Positions 33,014-45,035 of a stretch of DNA of 64,000 bases are shown piece by piece. Below the pieces are notes generated by a model, which was not told where the DNA came from, ran no database searches, and worked only from the letters and a program-made list of their open reading frames with translations. The DNA lies in assembly GCA_029243385.1 (NCBI GenBank), contig JAQWSC010000001.1, positions 1 through 64,000 of the forward strand, in the 5' to 3' direction. Within the stretch, counting starts at the first letter, position 1; each line of letters starts with the position of its first letter. Made by a program: the position numbers and the translations under genes. The stretch comes from Flavobacteriaceae bacterium. Its GTDB lineage: Bacteria; Bacteroidota; Bacteroidia; Flavobacteriales; Flavobacteriaceae.

Positions 33014-33216
33014 TTTTTAATTTTTAATACTATGGCACCTCCAATAAAGCACAGACCTGCATTTATAAGAACCAACGACAATGTTCCCATCCAAAACCAT
33101 GCCTTATTGTTGAATTTAGATAAAAGAGCTTCTCCAAAAACACACATTCCAGCACCCACACACAACAGACCCATCACAGAATAAATCCACCAACGTAGTT
33201 GTGTGTTATAAGCCAT
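33010..33216 (-). CDS. Small membrane protein, two helices
   Basis: The 68-residue protein has two hydrophobic helices (about 9-29 and 41-63) separated by a short polar loop (GEALLSKFNNKAWF). Its start codon overlaps the last base of ccsBA and its stop overlaps the next gene, so it is translated as part of that operon. No family is recognised; an accessory role with CcsBA is only a guess from position. Confidence 0.7.
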   Translation of the reverse strand: MAYNTQLRWWIYSVMGLLCVGAGMCVFGEALLSKFNNKAWFWMGTLSLVLINAGLCFIGGAIVLKIKK

Positions 33217-36200
33217 TATCGAAAGTATTTTTTGTGTTTGAAATAGGATAAAAATCCAAGTAAGAACACAAAGACCATGGAGTAATATACAAAATTAGGC
33301 GTAATAACTTTATCACCACTGGCATAAGAATGCAAGCCAGAGAGATAAAAATTAACTCCAAAATAAGTCATTACAATACTGGCGAAAGCAATGATAGCTA
33401 TCAAGTTGAACAACCACTTGCTTCGCAGTCCGGGAATAAGTCGCATATGAATAACGAAAGCATAAATCATAATGCTGATCAGTGCCCATGTTTCTTTTGG
33501 ATCCCATCCCCAGTATCGCCCCCAACTTTCATTGGCCCACATTCCTCCTAAAAAGTTTCCAATAGTAAGCATAACCAATCCTACTGTAAGTGCAAGTTCA
33601 TTGACCACTGTCAGTTCGCTCAGATAGAGCTTCATTTTTTCTTTGTTTTTGGCATTGGTAAGCAACATAAGTAGTAAAGAAACTACTCCCAAAATCATTC
33701 CTAAGGTAAAAGGGCCGTAACTACCTACAATTACAGCAACATGAATCATCAACCAATAGCTATCCAAAACGGGCTGAAGATTGGCAATTTCAGGATCCAT
33801 CCAATTCCAATGCGCTATCATTAAGATCATAGACGCAACAAATGCAGTTGAAGCTAGGGTTAAATCGGATTTTCGTCCGAAGGCCAATCCCATGGCTACG
33901 GTGGCCCAAGCGACATAAATCATAGATTCGTATGCGTCGCTCCAAGGCGCATGACCGGATATATACCAGCGAGCAATCAATCCTGCTGTTTGGACTAAAA
34001 ACAAGCCAACAATGGCGTATTTCATAATGGAGACTCCAATTTGGATCCAGCGTTTGTTGTTGAATATTTGAACAATCAAAAGCACAAACATCAATGCTCC
34101 AGCATACATATACCAGCTAAAAAGAGTTTTGAAAATATCGAACCTGTTGTAAAGTACTTCCGATTTTATTTTTTGGTCGGAAGGAACTACCTCAGCCCCG
34201 TATTTTTTTTGAAAACCTTTGAGGCTTTCTAGTAATTGATCGGCTTGATCGAAATCATTGCTCCTCAAAGAACTGAAATACAATGGAAGTATGTTTTTTA
34301 CATATAAAGAATCTGTTCCTTTAAAATTGACAGTTTCCAATTCCGAAAACGATATCCATTTGTTGTTTTGGTCGTTGGGAATTGGAAATATTCGAAGCAT
34401 TTTCCCTTCAAGAGCCGAGTATAATAAATTAACGCGCCGATCTACCTCGATGAAATCTTTTTGAAATTGATTAGGAACAGCTGATTTATAGGCCTTTTCC
34501 AATTGATTTGCCAATTTATAGTTGCCCTTTCCGTCAAAAAAATCAACAAAAGAGGCGTATTTGTTTTTAGGAGCAATTCCCAGAATATTCCGAAGGCTGT
34601 CGTTTCCGCGTTTCAAATAAATGATAGGCGTTTGATACCACATCAAGGGATTTTGCAAAATGGAAAGCATTACCTGATCAGCAGACAGTCCTTTGTAGGT
34701 GTCACTTTTACTCACCTTTCTAAGCAACTCAGACGCAAAGGTATTTATAGGCTTCATTCGACCCCCTAAATCTTGAATAATCAAATGCCCAAACTTATCT
34801 GCTTCGGGCGAGGGAACCGCCTGTGAAATAAGGAGGGTGTCGGAAATTTGCAACGGACTCACTTCGTGTTGATGCGTTTGGCTCATTGCTAGGCTAGAAA
34901 ACAGCAAAGTAGCCAAACCAAGAGCGGCTTTTTTCTTTTTTATTTTTTCCAGTTGAACTGATAAAGACTTGAAGCGTGTTTTTCCAAAAAACATAATTCC
35001 CATTAATCCAATGTACAATAAAAAATATCCAACATAAGTAACCCAAGTACCCCAAAAGTCGTGATTGACAGACAATACCGTTCCTTTTTCGTCGGGATCA
35101 AAAGATGCTTGAAAAAAACGGTATCCTTTGTGATCTAGCACATGGTTCATAAATATTTCGTAATCGAAAGAGGTTTCGTCTTCTACAGTAATTTTACTTT
35201 TAAAGCTGCTGTAACTTTTTTCAGTTCCAGGGTAACGTTCTGCAATAAAATCATTGAGTCGTATAGAGAAAGGCAATGTAAGTTCTATCGAACCGAAAGC
35301 CACCCAAAAATCCAACCCACCTAATGATATTTTCTTGGGCGGGTTTACAGATCCTTTGCCTCCCAAAACTTTCACAGTCTGTGTTTGTCCTTGGGTAGTA
35401 ATAGAGACTTCCAAAGCATCTTGAACCGCTTCCTCTGGATTCGCTGCAGCCACTACTCCGTAACGCCCTTTGACAATAGGGTCGGGAATCACAAATTGCA
35501 TTCCAGCCAAATTATACAACGAACGAAGCTGAAGGGCTTGTTCTTTTTCCTGATCAACAGCCCCTTGTTGTTGATCGGCCATTCTTAGATATGAACCTGA
35601 AAAGGGTGACTGAATAAAATAATTTTCTCCATCGAATCGAATATTGATAGCTCCTGAAGTTGGTTTGTTCAATGCAAACAAAACGTTGTGAATATTGGAA
35701 ACTTCCCCAGACTTAAGATAATGATCGTGTCGGTTTCCATCCCCTGCCTCAACTATTTTAAGGAATTCTTCGCCATTGGGATCTTCGACCAGTCCTTCTT
35801 CAGCATTTTCAATAAATCCTTGGTATTGAATTTGAAAAGATTGTCCATTGAAATCGTTGTTCCAGACAAAATCATTCTGAGTTACCGCCGCCAAAAGCAT
35901 GTCGTCTTGTAATTTTTTTCTACGAGGCTCTCCCCCAATTTCTCCATCTACAAAAACAGTTAAATACGTTTTTTCAGACATAAAAACTTGTTCCGAAGCA
36001 CCTTCTCGAATGGGCATAATTCCTTCGTAACCGATATAACGGGTGATGAAGGCACCGAAAATGATAAGAATCCATGAAACGTGTAGCATTAAAACAGGCC
36101 ACTTTTCCCAGCGAAGCAATCGGTAACGAGCAATGTTTCCAACAAAATTCACCACAAACATACCCATCATGGCTTCGAACCACCAAGCATTGTATATCCA

Positions 36201-36335
36201 AATTTTGGCAGTGGTGGTGTTGAAATCGTTCTCAATAAAAGTACCTATACCCATAGAAACGGAAAAGGCAATGAAGAGGACAGCTGTTAAACGAGTAGAA
36301 AACAGCGCATTAATAAGTTTATCTTTCAAATTCAT
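33216..36335 (-). CDS. ccsBA: Cytochrome c biogenesis protein CcsBA (ResB-CcsA fusion)
   Basis: The protein has 1039 residues from ATG 36335 (MNLKDKLINALFSTRLTAVLF); a start at 36389 would add 18 unconserved residues. The N-terminal part (about 1-450) is ResB-like: membrane helices with an early WFEAMMGMFVVNFVGN. A periplasmic region (~470-700) contains HEVSPLQISD and PEADKFGHLIIQDLGGRMKP. The C-terminal CcsA part has eight helices and the haem-binding Trp-rich loop WGRYWGWDPKETW with flanking His residues. System II CcsBA carries haem across the membrane and attaches it to apocytochrome c. The fusion is usual in Bacteroidota. Confidence 0.93.
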   Translation of the reverse strand: MNLKDKLINALFSTRLTAVLFIAFSVSMGIGTFIENDFNTTTAKIWIYNAWWFEAMMGMFVVNFVGNIARYRLLRWEKWPVLMLHVSWILIIFGAFITRYIGYEGIMPIREGASEQVFMSEKTYLTVFVDGEIGGEPRRKKLQDDMLLAAVTQNDFVWNNDFNGQSFQIQYQGFIENAEEGLVEDPNGEEFLKIVEAGDGNRHDHYLKSGEVSNIHNVLFALNKPTSGAINIRFDGENYFIQSPFSGSYLRMADQQQGAVDQEKEQALQLRSLYNLAGMQFVIPDPIVKGRYGVVAAANPEEAVQDALEVSITTQGQTQTVKVLGGKGSVNPPKKISLGGLDFWVAFGSIELTLPFSIRLNDFIAERYPGTEKSYSSFKSKITVEDETSFDYEIFMNHVLDHKGYRFFQASFDPDEKGTVLSVNHDFWGTWVTYVGYFLLYIGLMGIMFFGKTRFKSLSVQLEKIKKKKAALGLATLLFSSLAMSQTHQHEVSPLQISDTLLISQAVPSPEADKFGHLIIQDLGGRMKPINTFASELLRKVSKSDTYKGLSADQVMLSILQNPLMWYQTPIIYLKRGNDSLRNILGIAPKNKYASFVDFFDGKGNYKLANQLEKAYKSAVPNQFQKDFIEVDRRVNLLYSALEGKMLRIFPIPNDQNNKWISFSELETVNFKGTDSLYVKNILPLYFSSLRSNDFDQADQLLESLKGFQKKYGAEVVPSDQKIKSEVLYNRFDIFKTLFSWYMYAGALMFVLLIVQIFNNKRWIQIGVSIMKYAIVGLFLVQTAGLIARWYISGHAPWSDAYESMIYVAWATVAMGLAFGRKSDLTLASTAFVASMILMIAHWNWMDPEIANLQPVLDSYWLMIHVAVIVGSYGPFTLGMILGVVSLLLMLLTNAKNKEKMKLYLSELTVVNELALTVGLVMLTIGNFLGGMWANESWGRYWGWDPKETWALISIMIYAFVIHMRLIPGLRSKWLFNLIAIIAFASIVMTYFGVNFYLSGLHSYASGDKVITPNFVYYSMVFVFLLGFLSYFKHKKYFR

Positions 36336-36352
36336 AGCGTAAATTTGCGTGT

Positions 36353-36360
36353 CAAATGTA
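36353..36360 (-). promoter_or_regulatory. -7 element of ccsBA
   Basis: CAAATGTA on the plus strand reads TACATTTG on the minus strand, matching TAnnTTTG. It ends 17 bases before the ATG at 36335. No -33 element with standard spacing was found. Confidence 0.45.
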
Positions 36361-36469
36361 CGGGTTTTTCCGCAAATTTTTACTATCAACCTCCTGCTTT
36401 GGAAGGTCGATTTTCAAATATTTTAAGAAATTAAAAAACAAACAAATAACGCTTTCTAAATGAGCATAT

Positions 36470-40617: not shown

Positions 40618-41118
40618 TTACAAGGGCTTTTTTGAAAGATATAATTCTTTGAAAATCAATAAGGTAGCGATAATAAATGTAGCCGTCATCAATGTTCCTG
40701 AAAAAACAACTACATAAGCAAACCATTCTACTCCGTACCAAATCATGTAAATTCCTCCAAAAGTAACCAAGACAGAAGCAAAAGGTTCAATCATCAAAAA
40801 TTGTTTCCATTTTTTGGAAATGGAAGTTATCGCTAAAAGTCCTCCCATGAAAAAAAAGATGAAAGACATGGACAAAATATGCGTATGTACAATCGTAAGC
40901 ATTTCGCGTTGACTCTTTTTGAATTTCATGACAGGGGCATCTTCTATTTCCTCATTACCGTTGTAGTTTTCAACAACTCCATCAGGTGTTGTGCTTTCGG
41001 TTTGTCCTACAAATGTGAGTCCTGAAAAAAAGCCTACATTGAGCACCACCAAAAAAGCTGCGATAAAGTTTTTTACTTCGGAAGGTAGCTCCCTTATGGG
41101 AGTTAAAAAATGCATCAT
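40618..41118 (-). CDS. Four-helix membrane protein of the porin/FMN-binding operon
   Basis: The 166-residue protein has four predicted membrane helices (about 17-37, 73-99, 108-128, 133-158) and an acidic periplasmic loop (~38-62). Helix 2 starts with H78-T-H80 (TIVHTHILSMSFIFF), and helix 3 has a Trp-rich IWYGVEWF end. Paired histidines in membrane helices could bind haem, but no family is recognised. It lies 7 bases downstream of the FMN-binding gene, third in the operon after the porin. A role as the membrane electron donor to the flavin protein is inference. Confidence 0.75.
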   Translation of the reverse strand: MMHFLTPIRELPSEVKNFIAAFLVVLNVGFFSGLTFVGQTESTTPDGVVENYNGNEEIEDAPVMKFKKSQREMLTIVHTHILSMSFIFFFMGGLLAITSISKKWKQFLMIEPFASVLVTFGGIYMIWYGVEWFAYVVVFSGTLMTATFIIATLLIFKELYLSKKPL

Positions 41119-41125
41119 AATTCCC

Positions 41126-41656
41126 TTAAATTTTTTGTTGGAGTCGCAGTTGATATAACGATTGGTTCAAAACATTAATGGCTCTGGTCATGGATGTAAC
41201 CGAAATCGTTGCACCCGATATAGCGGCAATATTTTGCTGCAACAAAAACGAAGTTTCTACCGATTTTCCTTCGAACTGACGCAGCCAACGTTTGCTGCCA
41301 ATTTCCCCTCCGTAATCTTCTCGATATACAAGGACTTTTGCTTTTTGGATAATCAAATTAGCATTAAACAAAACTAGATATTCAAAGGTATCTGTTTTGC
41401 TCGGTGCGTTTCCGACATAGGCATAGCCTATCAACTTTTGATCTTGTAAAACCTCAAAAAAACGATTTTGGGAAAAATCTGAGACTACCAAATCCGAGCT
41501 TTCAAAAACAAGTGGATTGAGTGTAAAAGTTTCGGTTTTAAAGGTTTTATTAATTTCTTTCTTAACCTTTTTCTGAATGTTTTTAGGCAATGAAAATGCA
41601 CTGCAAAATAGAGCAGTTACTAAAATACCAGCAAAAAGTTTGAAGTGCATTTTCAT
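41126..41656 (-). CDS. FMN-binding (flavinylated) periplasmic protein
   Basis: The 176-residue protein has a signal peptide (MKMHFKLFAGILVTALFCSAFS) and an FMN_bind-type domain. SGATISVTSMTRAIN (147-161) contains the S-G-A-T150 flavinylation site found in RnfG/NqrC, where ApbE attaches FMN to threonine through phosphate. The preceding segment with VYREDYGGEIGSKRWLRQFEGK is also typical. No rnf or nqr genes are present, so this is a standalone extracytosolic flavin protein. It lies between the porin and the membrane protein genes (24- and 7-base gaps). Confidence 0.88.
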   Translation of the reverse strand: MKMHFKLFAGILVTALFCSAFSLPKNIQKKVKKEINKTFKTETFTLNPLVFESSDLVVSDFSQNRFFEVLQDQKLIGYAYVGNAPSKTDTFEYLVLFNANLIIQKAKVLVYREDYGGEIGSKRWLRQFEGKSVETSFLLQQNIAAISGATISVTSMTRAINVLNQSLYQLRLQQKI

Positions 41657-41680
41657 ATTGCAAAAGTAATCAGTTGAACG

Positions 41681-42829
41681 TTAGAACCAAAATCCTAAGC
41701 CAACATTAAATTGTTTGGCATCATCACTGCCATCAAGTGCAGTAGCCTTATTTTGGTAATCGATCTTAAAAACCGCACCAGGAGCTATATGATACGACAC
41801 TCCTGTAGTCCATTCCGAACGGTGAAAAGTATCATTTTCTGTAATTCCATCGACCTCAGCATGGGTGTCAAAATTTTCATATCGAACAAATAGGTCCAAC
41901 TTTTGACGGTGAGCAACCGGAAGTACGTTGTAAGCCACTTCTGCATAGTAGCCGGACATGGCCGAACCTAAGTCCGCTCCAGTCAGGTCGTTGTAGGCTT
42001 TTGTATCGTCAAGCGAGGTGTAGATATATTGTCCTCTAGCAGAAAATTGTTGTTTCACGTACCGGGCATCAAATCCAAGCATTGACACTCCGATATCAGC
42101 ACCTTTGGGCGCATCGTCTGGCGCTTGGGTTCTACCCGTATAAGAAGCCAATCCCAATCGCAAACCTGGAATTCCGTAGTATTCTACTTTGGCAGCAAAG
42201 TTGAAATCAGATACTGTGGATTCTGCTCCTTTTTGACGACCGGAACGCAATCCGTTGGATCCTTTTAAAATTCCTTTATCTGTGTAGGAAGAAAATCCGT
42301 TCATAATGTATGCTTGGTAGCGAATAGAAGCGGAATTGATCCGTCCTGAAACTCCAAAACCAATTTCACGCCATGTGGTTGGAATCACTTTGTTGTCCAA
42401 ACTTGGGCGCTCAACTCCGTTGTAGGTTGTAGGTTCGTGGTATTCATTAATGATTCCCATTGGGACCAACATCAATCCACCGCGAAGATTGAAATTATCT
42501 GTAAGGCTGTAGTTGATAAAAGCCTGCTCTACATATACCTCTTTTACATGTTCAAATTCGATTTCGGTAACCATTTGCACACGATCGTCAAATTTGTATC
42601 CAAAAAGGATTACCAAACGCTGAACATCGAGCTCTCCGTTTTTGCCAGAAGGCTGATTGTATGTGATTTCTCCGTATCCACCAATGGTCAGTCCTTTTTG
42701 GACGCCGTCTAAAACCGAAATTATTTTTTGGTTTCCATTTAACTGCAAAGTGTCTTGTCCGAAGAAACTCAAAGAGGGCATCAGAAAACAAGCAATTAAC
42801 AAGTTTTTGAGTGTAATTTTGTTAGTCAT
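41681..42829 (-). CDS. Outer-membrane porin (OprO/OprP-like)
   Basis: The 382-residue protein has a signal peptide (about residues 1-25, SLSFFGQDT) and a beta-barrel pattern of alternating residues with a C-terminal aromatic (VGLGFWF). QRLVILFGYKFDDRVQMVTEIEFEHVKEVYVEQAFINYSL and LRGGLMLVPMGIINEYHEPT are typical of the phosphate/anion-selective porin superfamily in Bacteroidota. Substrate is unknown. The promoter is flanked by two Fur-like boxes, so iron may be involved. First gene of the three-gene operon. Confidence 0.87.
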   Translation of the reverse strand: MTNKITLKNLLIACFLMPSLSFFGQDTLQLNGNQKIISVLDGVQKGLTIGGYGEITYNQPSGKNGELDVQRLVILFGYKFDDRVQMVTEIEFEHVKEVYVEQAFINYSLTDNFNLRGGLMLVPMGIINEYHEPTTYNGVERPSLDNKVIPTTWREIGFGVSGRINSASIRYQAYIMNGFSSYTDKGILKGSNGLRSGRQKGAESTVSDFNFAAKVEYYGIPGLRLGLASYTGRTQAPDDAPKGADIGVSMLGFDARYVKQQFSARGQYIYTSLDDTKAYNDLTGADLGSAMSGYYAEVAYNVLPVAHRQKLDLFVRYENFDTHAEVDGITENDTFHRSEWTTGVSYHIAPGAVFKIDYQNKATALDGSDDAKQFNVGLGFWF

Positions 42830-42838
42830 GATGTCTTT

Positions 42839-42923
42839 ATTTAGAATTAGTTTAAATTAAAATATGGCGCAAATATATACTCCGAAATCGAAATACACAA
42901 ACTTATTTAGAATTAATTTAAAT
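42839..42923 (-). promoter_or_regulatory. Porin-operon promoter flanked by two Fur-like inverted repeats
   Basis: Minus-strand TATATTTG (42877-42870) and TTTG (42901-42898) with a 20-base spacer make a canonical promoter. ATTTAGAATTAGTTTAAAT (42839-42857) and ATTTAGAATTAATTTAAAT (42905-42923) are near-identical 19-bp inverted repeats, 66 bases apart. The first lies in the leader, the second directly upstream of -33. They resemble the 19-bp AT-rich Fur box architecture. Fur binding is inferred. Confidence 0.6.
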
Positions 42924-43813: not shown

Positions 43814-44246
43814 CAAAATCCTTTTAGGGTGAAAGAGGTTGTATACCAACTCCTAAAAAAGGTTGTTGTAGTTTGTATATTTTACTTAGCAGTAGAAACG
43901 CTCCAAAAACGATTCTACAATTTCTAAAGACCTACATTTTCAGTTCTGTTTTATAGATTTTACAAACATTGATTTTTTGGATGCAGTTGCTTCAAATATT
44001 TACCCCATTGGGGTGGCTATCAGAACAGGTTCGGATATACAGGAGTTGGATTACATTCAGCCTTTGGCTGACCAAAGTTGCTCCATCCCGAATACTCGGG
44101 ATTCCCGCCCCTTTGGAAATGGAATCCAACAAAACCCCAGATGAAACAGTCGTGCATCGCCTCATTGAAAAAAGAGCGTAAGCAAAACAAAAATATGTGT
44201 TGGGATTTTGTTATCAAAAACGGGTAGCCATTTACCAAAGATGCCT
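43814..44246. other. Non-coding or decayed interval with stem-loops
   Basis: This 430-base stretch holds no convincing gene. Within 44058-44102 two perfect stem-loops lie close together: CAGCC-TTT-GGCTG (44058-44070) and ATCCCGA-ATAC-TCGGGAT (44085-44102). The block 44020-44180 is more GC-rich than its flanks. Weak open frames exist on both strands (43969-44181 plus; 44020-44340 minus), but none has a recognisable domain or proper start. It could be a small RNA gene, a dispersed repeat or the remnant of a lost gene. Confidence 0.4.
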
Positions 44247-44254
44247 TATTTTTG
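44247..44254 (+). promoter_or_regulatory. -7 element of the DUF3050 gene
   Basis: TATTTTTG matches TAnnTTTG and ends 19 bases before the ATG at 44274. No good -33 element with normal spacing was found. Confidence 0.45.
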
Positions 44255-44273
44255 TAGCGAAAAAGAAAACAAT

Positions 44274-45035
44274 ATGACGGCATCACAAACTTTAGAGGCT
44301 CAAATAGAGCCTTTGAAATCACAATTAATTTCACATCCATTATACAGTACGCTCACAAACAAAAAGTCCATTCAATTGTTTATGGAAACCCACATTTTTG
44401 CGGTTTGGGACTTTATGTCGCTTGTGAAAGCCTTGCAACAACACCTCACTTGCACCACTACCCCTTGGATACCTGTTGGGAGTCCAAGCACCCGACGATT
44501 GATCAATGAAATTGTGTTGGGTGAAGAAAGTGACGTAGATCAACACCAGCAGCCTGCCAGTCATTTTGAACTTTATACAGATGCTTTGGAAGCCCTTGGT
44601 GGAAACACAAATGCACTTCATCAATTGGTTGAAAATATTCGCGCGGGCGCTTCATATCAAGCTGCGTCCGAACAGCTCGATATTCCTGTTGCTGCCAAAA
44701 CTTTTATGGATTTTACCTTTGAAATAATTGAAACAGGCCAGCCGCATTTGATCGCCGCTGTTTTTACTTTTGGTCGCGAAGATTTGATTCCCGATATGTT
44801 TATTGAAATCGTTCAAAAACTTGCCCAAGAAAACACCACCGATTTTGTTGCGTTGCTCTATTATTTAGAACGTCATATCGAAGTTGACAGTGAAGAACAC
44901 GGCCCTATGGCACTTCAAATGATTAACGAACTCTGTGGCGACGATTCTCAGAAATGGGAAGCCTGCATCGAAGTTTCCCAACAAGCACTTTATCACCGTA
45001 TTGCTCTATGGGATAGCATCTATCAATCTTTATAG
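44274..45035 (+). CDS. DUF3050 (haem-oxygenase-like fold) protein
   Basis: The protein has 253 residues from ATG 44274 (MTASQTLEAQIEPLKSQL); upstream in-frame codons lie before the predicted promoter. Conserved DUF3050 features: FMETHIFAVWDFMSLVKALQQHLTC, NEIVLGEESD, TFEIIETGQPHLIAAVFTFGREDLIPDMF and YLERHIEVDSEEHGPMAL, with His/Glu residues that in this helical superfamily can bind haem or a di-metal site. The reaction is unknown. Confidence 0.88.
   Translation: MTASQTLEAQIEPLKSQLISHPLYSTLTNKKSIQLFMETHIFAVWDFMSLVKALQQHLTCTTTPWIPVGSPSTRRLINEIVLGEESDVDQHQQPASHFELYTDALEALGGNTNALHQLVENIRAGASYQAASEQLDIPVAAKTFMDFTFEIIETGQPHLIAAVFTFGREDLIPDMFIEIVQKLAQENTTDFVALLYYLERHIEVDSEEHGPMALQMINELCGDDSQKWEACIEVSQQALYHRIALWDSIYQSL

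Follow-up and report, generated by a model that had tools for sequence, protein, structure and literature searches.

The locus described here raises the question of what a porin, a predicted flavoprotein and a small membrane protein of no named family might do together in the envelope of a flavobacterium. The window (the whole stretch of 64,000 nucleotides analyzed, from a Flavobacteriaceae bacterium) carries the three genes at positions 40618-42829, in one direction and in the order porin, FMN protein, TM4. The porin gene (41681-42829, minus strand), the 5'-most gene of the operon, encodes a 16-strand outer-membrane porin of 382 aa; the FMN protein gene (41126-41656, minus strand) encodes a putatively exported FMN_bind protein of 176 aa with an SGAT site, predicted to be flavinylated at T150; and the TM4 gene (40618-41118, minus strand) encodes a four-helix inner-membrane protein of 166 aa with an H78-x-H80 pair. 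Stop-to-start spacing is 24 bases between the porin and FMN genes and 7 bases between the FMN and TM4 genes.

A porin-FMN-TM4 trio is conserved across the Bacteroidota

The trio is flanked by IMPDH and HMGL-like genes, housekeeping in appearance, whose linkage to it amounts to family synteny and is gone in distant loci. The trio operon is devoid of iron transporter genes, both in the window and in the loci of relatives. Elsewhere in the window, a DUF3050 protein that weakly matches heme-oxygenase-like proteins is encoded near the trio on the opposite strand (44208-45035), and a 1057-aa open reading frame (33216-36389) resembles, by inspection, a fused cytochrome c biogenesis protein of the ResB-CcsA type.

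Among Flavobacteriales relatives, represented by 21 loci from 17 genomes and 4 contigs, the three genes occur in the same order and on the same strand in every case (21/21, with the porin of L033 truncated where its contig stops). A profile search detected TM4 in 38 of 395 genomes of the phylum, many of them from other classes, and 33 of the 35 further loci carry the trio in order. In total, the order and strand are kept in 54 of 56 other TM4-bearing loci from several Bacteroidota classes, and an FMN gene adjoins or lies near TM4 in all 56. Chance adjacency is rejected by this conservation of order (21/21 and 33/35 loci). Furthermore, pairwise distances within the porin, FMN and TM4 families correlate with r of at least 0.91 for each pair, a value to which species history contributes. 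As judged from sequence, the porin, the FMN protein and TM4 form one conserved module whose parts belong together.

Variants of this layout were also observed. At L082 (6340-8936), a DUF6607-type protein replaces the porin beside the FMN protein and TM4, with a ferritin gene adjoining on the other strand. Separately, L029 (1164-5464, genome G019) encodes a second FMN_bind paralogue and a DUF6607 protein, divergent from a heme-uptake pair consisting of a TonB receptor (HmuR) and HmuY.

The FMN protein carries an invariant flavinylation motif

The FMN protein scores 25.2 bits with the FMN_bind model (PF04205; cut-off 22), and contains the segment ISGATIS, in which G148, A149 and T150 are 100% invariant across 58 FMN sequences. 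Its N terminus resembles a signal peptide by inspection, and we infer from these features that the protein is exported and bears covalent FMN at T150. The window's genome encodes a single copy of ApbE, on a different contig from the trio. In 14 loci outside the order to which the window belongs, ApbE is encoded beside or close to the trio, suggesting that the flavin transferase travels with these genes; it is the main informative recurrent neighbor there, and the remaining recurrent neighbors look like local synteny.

The possibility that the trio is a remnant of an Nqr or Rnf complex was rejected, as no other Nqr/Rnf subunits are encoded beside it. RnfG models match the FMN protein only far under cut-off, and the genome's nqr operon resides on a separate contig (C9).

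TM4 and the porin

The structural model of TM4 consists of four long helices (pLDDT 88). H78 and H80, located near the start of helix 2, are its sole conserved histidines, and the residues invariant across 57 sequences are G54, H78, H80, F88 and P112. Mean charges over the same number of sequences are +1.9 for the N terminus, -3.4 for loop 1, +1.9 for loop 2 and +1.2 for the C terminus, a pattern that would keep the N and C termini inside, with H78/H80 then on the periplasmic side of that helix.

No Pfam family matched TM4 above cut-off and no NCBIfam family matched at all, including the family models for PepSY, MsrQ and DUF4405. No solved relative was found in sequence comparisons, a fold search of the PDB returned nothing with E <= 0.001, and no TM4 was found on plasmid records. 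Two family assignments were tried and rejected: DUF5336, which scored 22.5 bits with the window's TM4 against a cut-off of 28.6, turned up in 2 of 13 members and is likely a match of transmembrane composition, and a DUF4405-type cytochrome, for which hhalign comparison to two DUF4405-like plasmid proteins gave 0.3% probability. PepSY, MsrQ and DUF4405 cytochromes have a four-histidine, bis-His pattern, whereas TM4 has one HxH pair; paired axial histidines on separate helices are absent from it, H78 and H80 both being on helix 2. The conservation of just two histidines thus argues against a classic diheme cytochrome, and H78/H80 may possibly form a site for quinol, for a metal, or for a heme shared within a dimer. 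The HTHILSM segment may resemble helix X of heme-copper oxidases and other HxH membrane proteins such as DUF2871 and NnrS. TM4, a putative redox protein, matches no known electron-transfer family.

The porin was modeled as a 16-strand barrel (pLDDT 73), and its fold matches general porins of the OmpU/OmpC type in the PDB (Foldseek, E down to 6e-13). It ends in GFWF, and thus has the C-terminal Phe of general outer-membrane porins. The phosphate-selective Porin_O_P family (PF07396) is matched by the porins of 12 of the 21 relatives (best 2.6e-10), with the window's porin unmatched. The porin is of the general or Porin_O_P type, with no iron-specific feature.

These results agree with what an earlier note had read from the letters of this DNA. 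The three open reading frames that it placed here are present on the minus strand; its outer-membrane porin has 16 strands in the model and general-porin matches in the PDB; its periplasmic SGAT protein scores above the FMN_bind cut-off with T150 invariant; and its four-helix protein with H78/H80 at a helix start has the modeled helices and two invariant histidines. The conserved three-gene synteny that it proposed to look for was found in 54 of the 56 loci, and its statement that no Rnf/Nqr genes are nearby holds for the genes adjoining the trio, the nqr operon being on another contig.

Fur-like sites suggest a link between the trio and iron uptake

Upstream of the porin gene, two near-repeats of the form ATTTAGAATTARTTTAAAT were identified, a proximal one (ATTTAGAATTAGTTTAAAT, 42839-42857) and a distal one (ATTTAGAATTAATTTAAAT, 42905-42923), strand not being applicable to either. 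Each agrees at 17 of 19 positions with the Fur box of Riemerella anatipestifer, ATTTAGAATTATTCTAAAT, reported in a study whose EMSA experiments showed Fur binding to four promoters that carry putative boxes (PMC5609570). Between the two sites lies a predicted promoter of the Bacteroidota type, a pattern match to TTG-N20-TATATTTG on the minus strand (42870-42900), and this layout of a promoter between two sites recurs in most Flavobacteriales relatives. The degenerate motif has four matches in the window (the two sites, on both strands), against 0.07 expected. With significance estimated from 200 shuffles per locus, the upstream region contains a match at p <= 0.01 in 23 of 24 Flavobacteriales loci and in 16 of 31 others.

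A scan of the window's genome, which encodes one Fur protein, returned 14 matches to the site pattern and 3 to a reversed-pattern control. Besides those at the trio, sites occur 5' of feoAB, between the heme-synthesis genes hemH and hemACDE, 5' of the Fe-S assembly genes Mrp-NifU, 5' of nqr and by a cytochrome c, together with one weak site. The site upstream of the nqrA-F operon (L157:10942, corresponding to C9:74941 in the window's genome) has 3 mismatches. The feoAB site is also found in genomes G033 and G022, the latter having additional sites at its HmuR/HmuY genes (TonB/HmuY receptors) and at hemA. The Fur-like control that the earlier note had asserted, rather than derived, now has a basis in the two 17/19 sites that flank the promoter and are conserved in relatives; at the sequence level, these data support the view that the trio is under Fur-type control in common with feoAB.

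No FecCD siderophore or heme permease was found in the window's genome, compared to 13 of 14 control genomes in which such permeases were found, and PepSY_TM was likewise missing from the window's genome. Among the systems sought, Feo would therefore be the only importer, and the trio the only candidate ferric reductase. The ferrous transporter feoAB is available and bears the same type of Fur-like site as the trio. Among relatives, FeoB is present in all 18 trio genomes (the window's own included) and in 34 of 42 trio-less ones, and its frequency in the latter makes the co-occurrence weak evidence. An anticorrelation between the trio and FecCD was not found, FecCD being missing in 4 of 18 trio genomes and 12 of 42 trio-less ones.

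A candidate ferric reductase and its alternatives

Taken together, these data lead us to favor, with moderate confidence, a reading in which the trio is a Fur-repressed, flavin-based ferric reductase that supplies Fe(II) to FeoB. It would be an iron-starvation module carrying electrons from the inner membrane to periplasmic ferric iron. TM4 would draw electrons from the membrane (quinol), possibly via heme or metal at H78/H80 near the periplasmic face, and pass them to the exported protein, whose covalent FMN would in turn reduce the Fe(III), as such or in weak chelates, that enters through the co-expressed porin, and the resulting Fe(II) would be imported by FeoAB. Iron repression, as the direction of control, is what we infer from feoAB. 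Several observations count against this reading: the operon encodes no iron transporter, TM4 lacks a solved relative and has two conserved histidines where a transmembrane diheme conduit would have four, and the porin shows nothing iron-specific. The ferric reductase route suggested in the earlier note is supported in part, with regard to the three-gene module, the flavinylation-type protein, ApbE as a neighbor in other lineages, and Fur-type control. More tentatively, and with somewhat less than even confidence, we propose that TM4 belongs to a new class of electron conduits in the inner membrane, in which a single HxH near the periplasmic face (serving as a quinol site or as ligands of heme or metal, perhaps within a dimer) reduces the flavinylated protein and, with the dedicated porin, provides a phylum-wide ferric route to FeoB.

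The same regulatory evidence is compatible with a role in which iron is not the substrate, the flavoprotein and TM4 replacing heme-containing periplasmic carriers during iron starvation and feeding another periplasmic enzyme. Fur-like sites near nqr and a cytochrome c in the window's genome would fit such an iron-sparing carrier, as would the suggestion of a 2021 flavinylation survey that flavin transfer is perhaps favored in iron-poor settings (PMC8238504). We nevertheless consider this role unlikely, as it leaves unexplained the dedicated porin that is the first gene in nearly every locus, and no recurrent periplasmic acceptor enzyme is found near the trio.

Another oxidized small molecule, such as an organic acceptor or an anion, might also enter through the porin and be reduced by the flavoprotein and TM4 for respiration or detoxification. 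The Porin_O_P matches among relatives are in line with this idea, proteobacterial analogues of the trio adjoin cytochrome c peroxidase or copper oxidases, and at the distant locus L113 (4318-8306) a rearranged TM4 and FMN_bind pair stands beside EB_dh-like and c-type cytochrome proteins, an arrangement that suggests another use for the same parts. Four loci from one genus of another class (L096, L097, L100 and L101) encode ApbE 5' of the trio and a PCuAC copper chaperone 3' of it, with phosphate-transporter-like genes beyond, and these GC-rich loci are without a Fur-like site. The L113 context and the lack of such a site in L096-type loci indicate that some lineages may use the trio for other acceptors. 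As a general account, however, this explanation appears quite improbable, since the Fur-type sites and the predicted co-regulation with feoAB favor iron and no dedicated reductase subunit is present in the operon. The pairing of a porin with a redox protein also recalls porin-cytochrome conduits, but dissimilatory or extracellular electron transfer, with the porin as a conduit for flavoprotein electrons to external metals, is very improbable given a single small FMN domain with no multiheme partner, the iron-type control, and the presence of the trio in small-genome Flavobacteriales.

Comparison with known systems

The trio appears to be an undescribed form of flavinylation-linked envelope electron transfer, one that most likely serves iron assimilation. 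Published flavinylation surveys cover PepSY, MsrQ, DsbD, Nqr/Rnf-like, P19 and DUF4405 contexts, and the word "porin" is not present in the main text of either (PMC8238504, PMC11334425). Targeted searches of the open-licence literature returned no description of a porin-FMN-TM4 trio, and within that literature the earlier note's "apparently undescribed" holds.

The closest counterparts are the iron-reduction systems of Meheust et al. 2021, namely PepSY-like systems, MsrQ-like systems with VIT1, and P19-FTR1 with FMN_bind (PMC8238504). As is predicted for the trio, they combine an exported, ApbE-flavinylated FMN_bind protein with a membrane electron donor and an iron or Fur link. In the trio, however, TM4 is neither PepSY nor MsrQ, the outer-membrane partner is a porin, and the predicted tie to FeoAB is through common Fur-type sites rather than gene adjacency. 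The DUF4405/FezC cytochromes (PMC11334425) likewise place a small membrane protein by a flavinylated protein, often with apbE, but DUF4405-like proteins have four conserved histidines, in contrast to the one HxH of TM4, which has no profile similarity to two plasmid DUF4405-like proteins. The trio is also comparable to FsrB of Bradyrhizobium, a siderophore reductase feeding FeoAB (PMC10760861), in that periplasmic ferric reduction would supply FeoAB in both. FsrB is an alphaproteobacterial ferric-siderophore reductase, the abstract that describes it mentions no porin-FMN-TM4 trio, and the likeness is one of description only.

Periplasmic ferric reduction ahead of FeoB in Gram-negatives is a step whose agent is often unknown. 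The trio offers a compact, conserved and concrete candidate in a small-genome flavobacterium without FecCD and PepSY_TM, with a prediction for each gene, and, if the proposal is true, a new membrane electron donor would join the known flavinylation partners.

Proteobacterial plasmid operons (L115, L116, L159 and L160) provide a further comparison. They too combine an outer-membrane protein, FMN_bind and a small membrane protein; unlike the window's trio, they include ApbE within the operon, the order being outer-membrane protein, FMN_bind, ApbE, and then a small membrane or hypothetical protein. The outer-membrane protein is a related porin (~30% identical) in Ideonella, Bradyrhizobium and Methylocystis and a DUF6662 protein in Sphingomonas. 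The membrane proteins of L115 and L116 conserve four histidines between them, with a weak DUF4405 match in one, and have no profile similarity to TM4, so that the membrane part has apparently been swapped within the same layout. That the layout recurs with another type of membrane protein supports the assignment of TM4 as the electron donor and, if the proposal is true, a single envelope architecture could have its membrane component exchanged between phyla.
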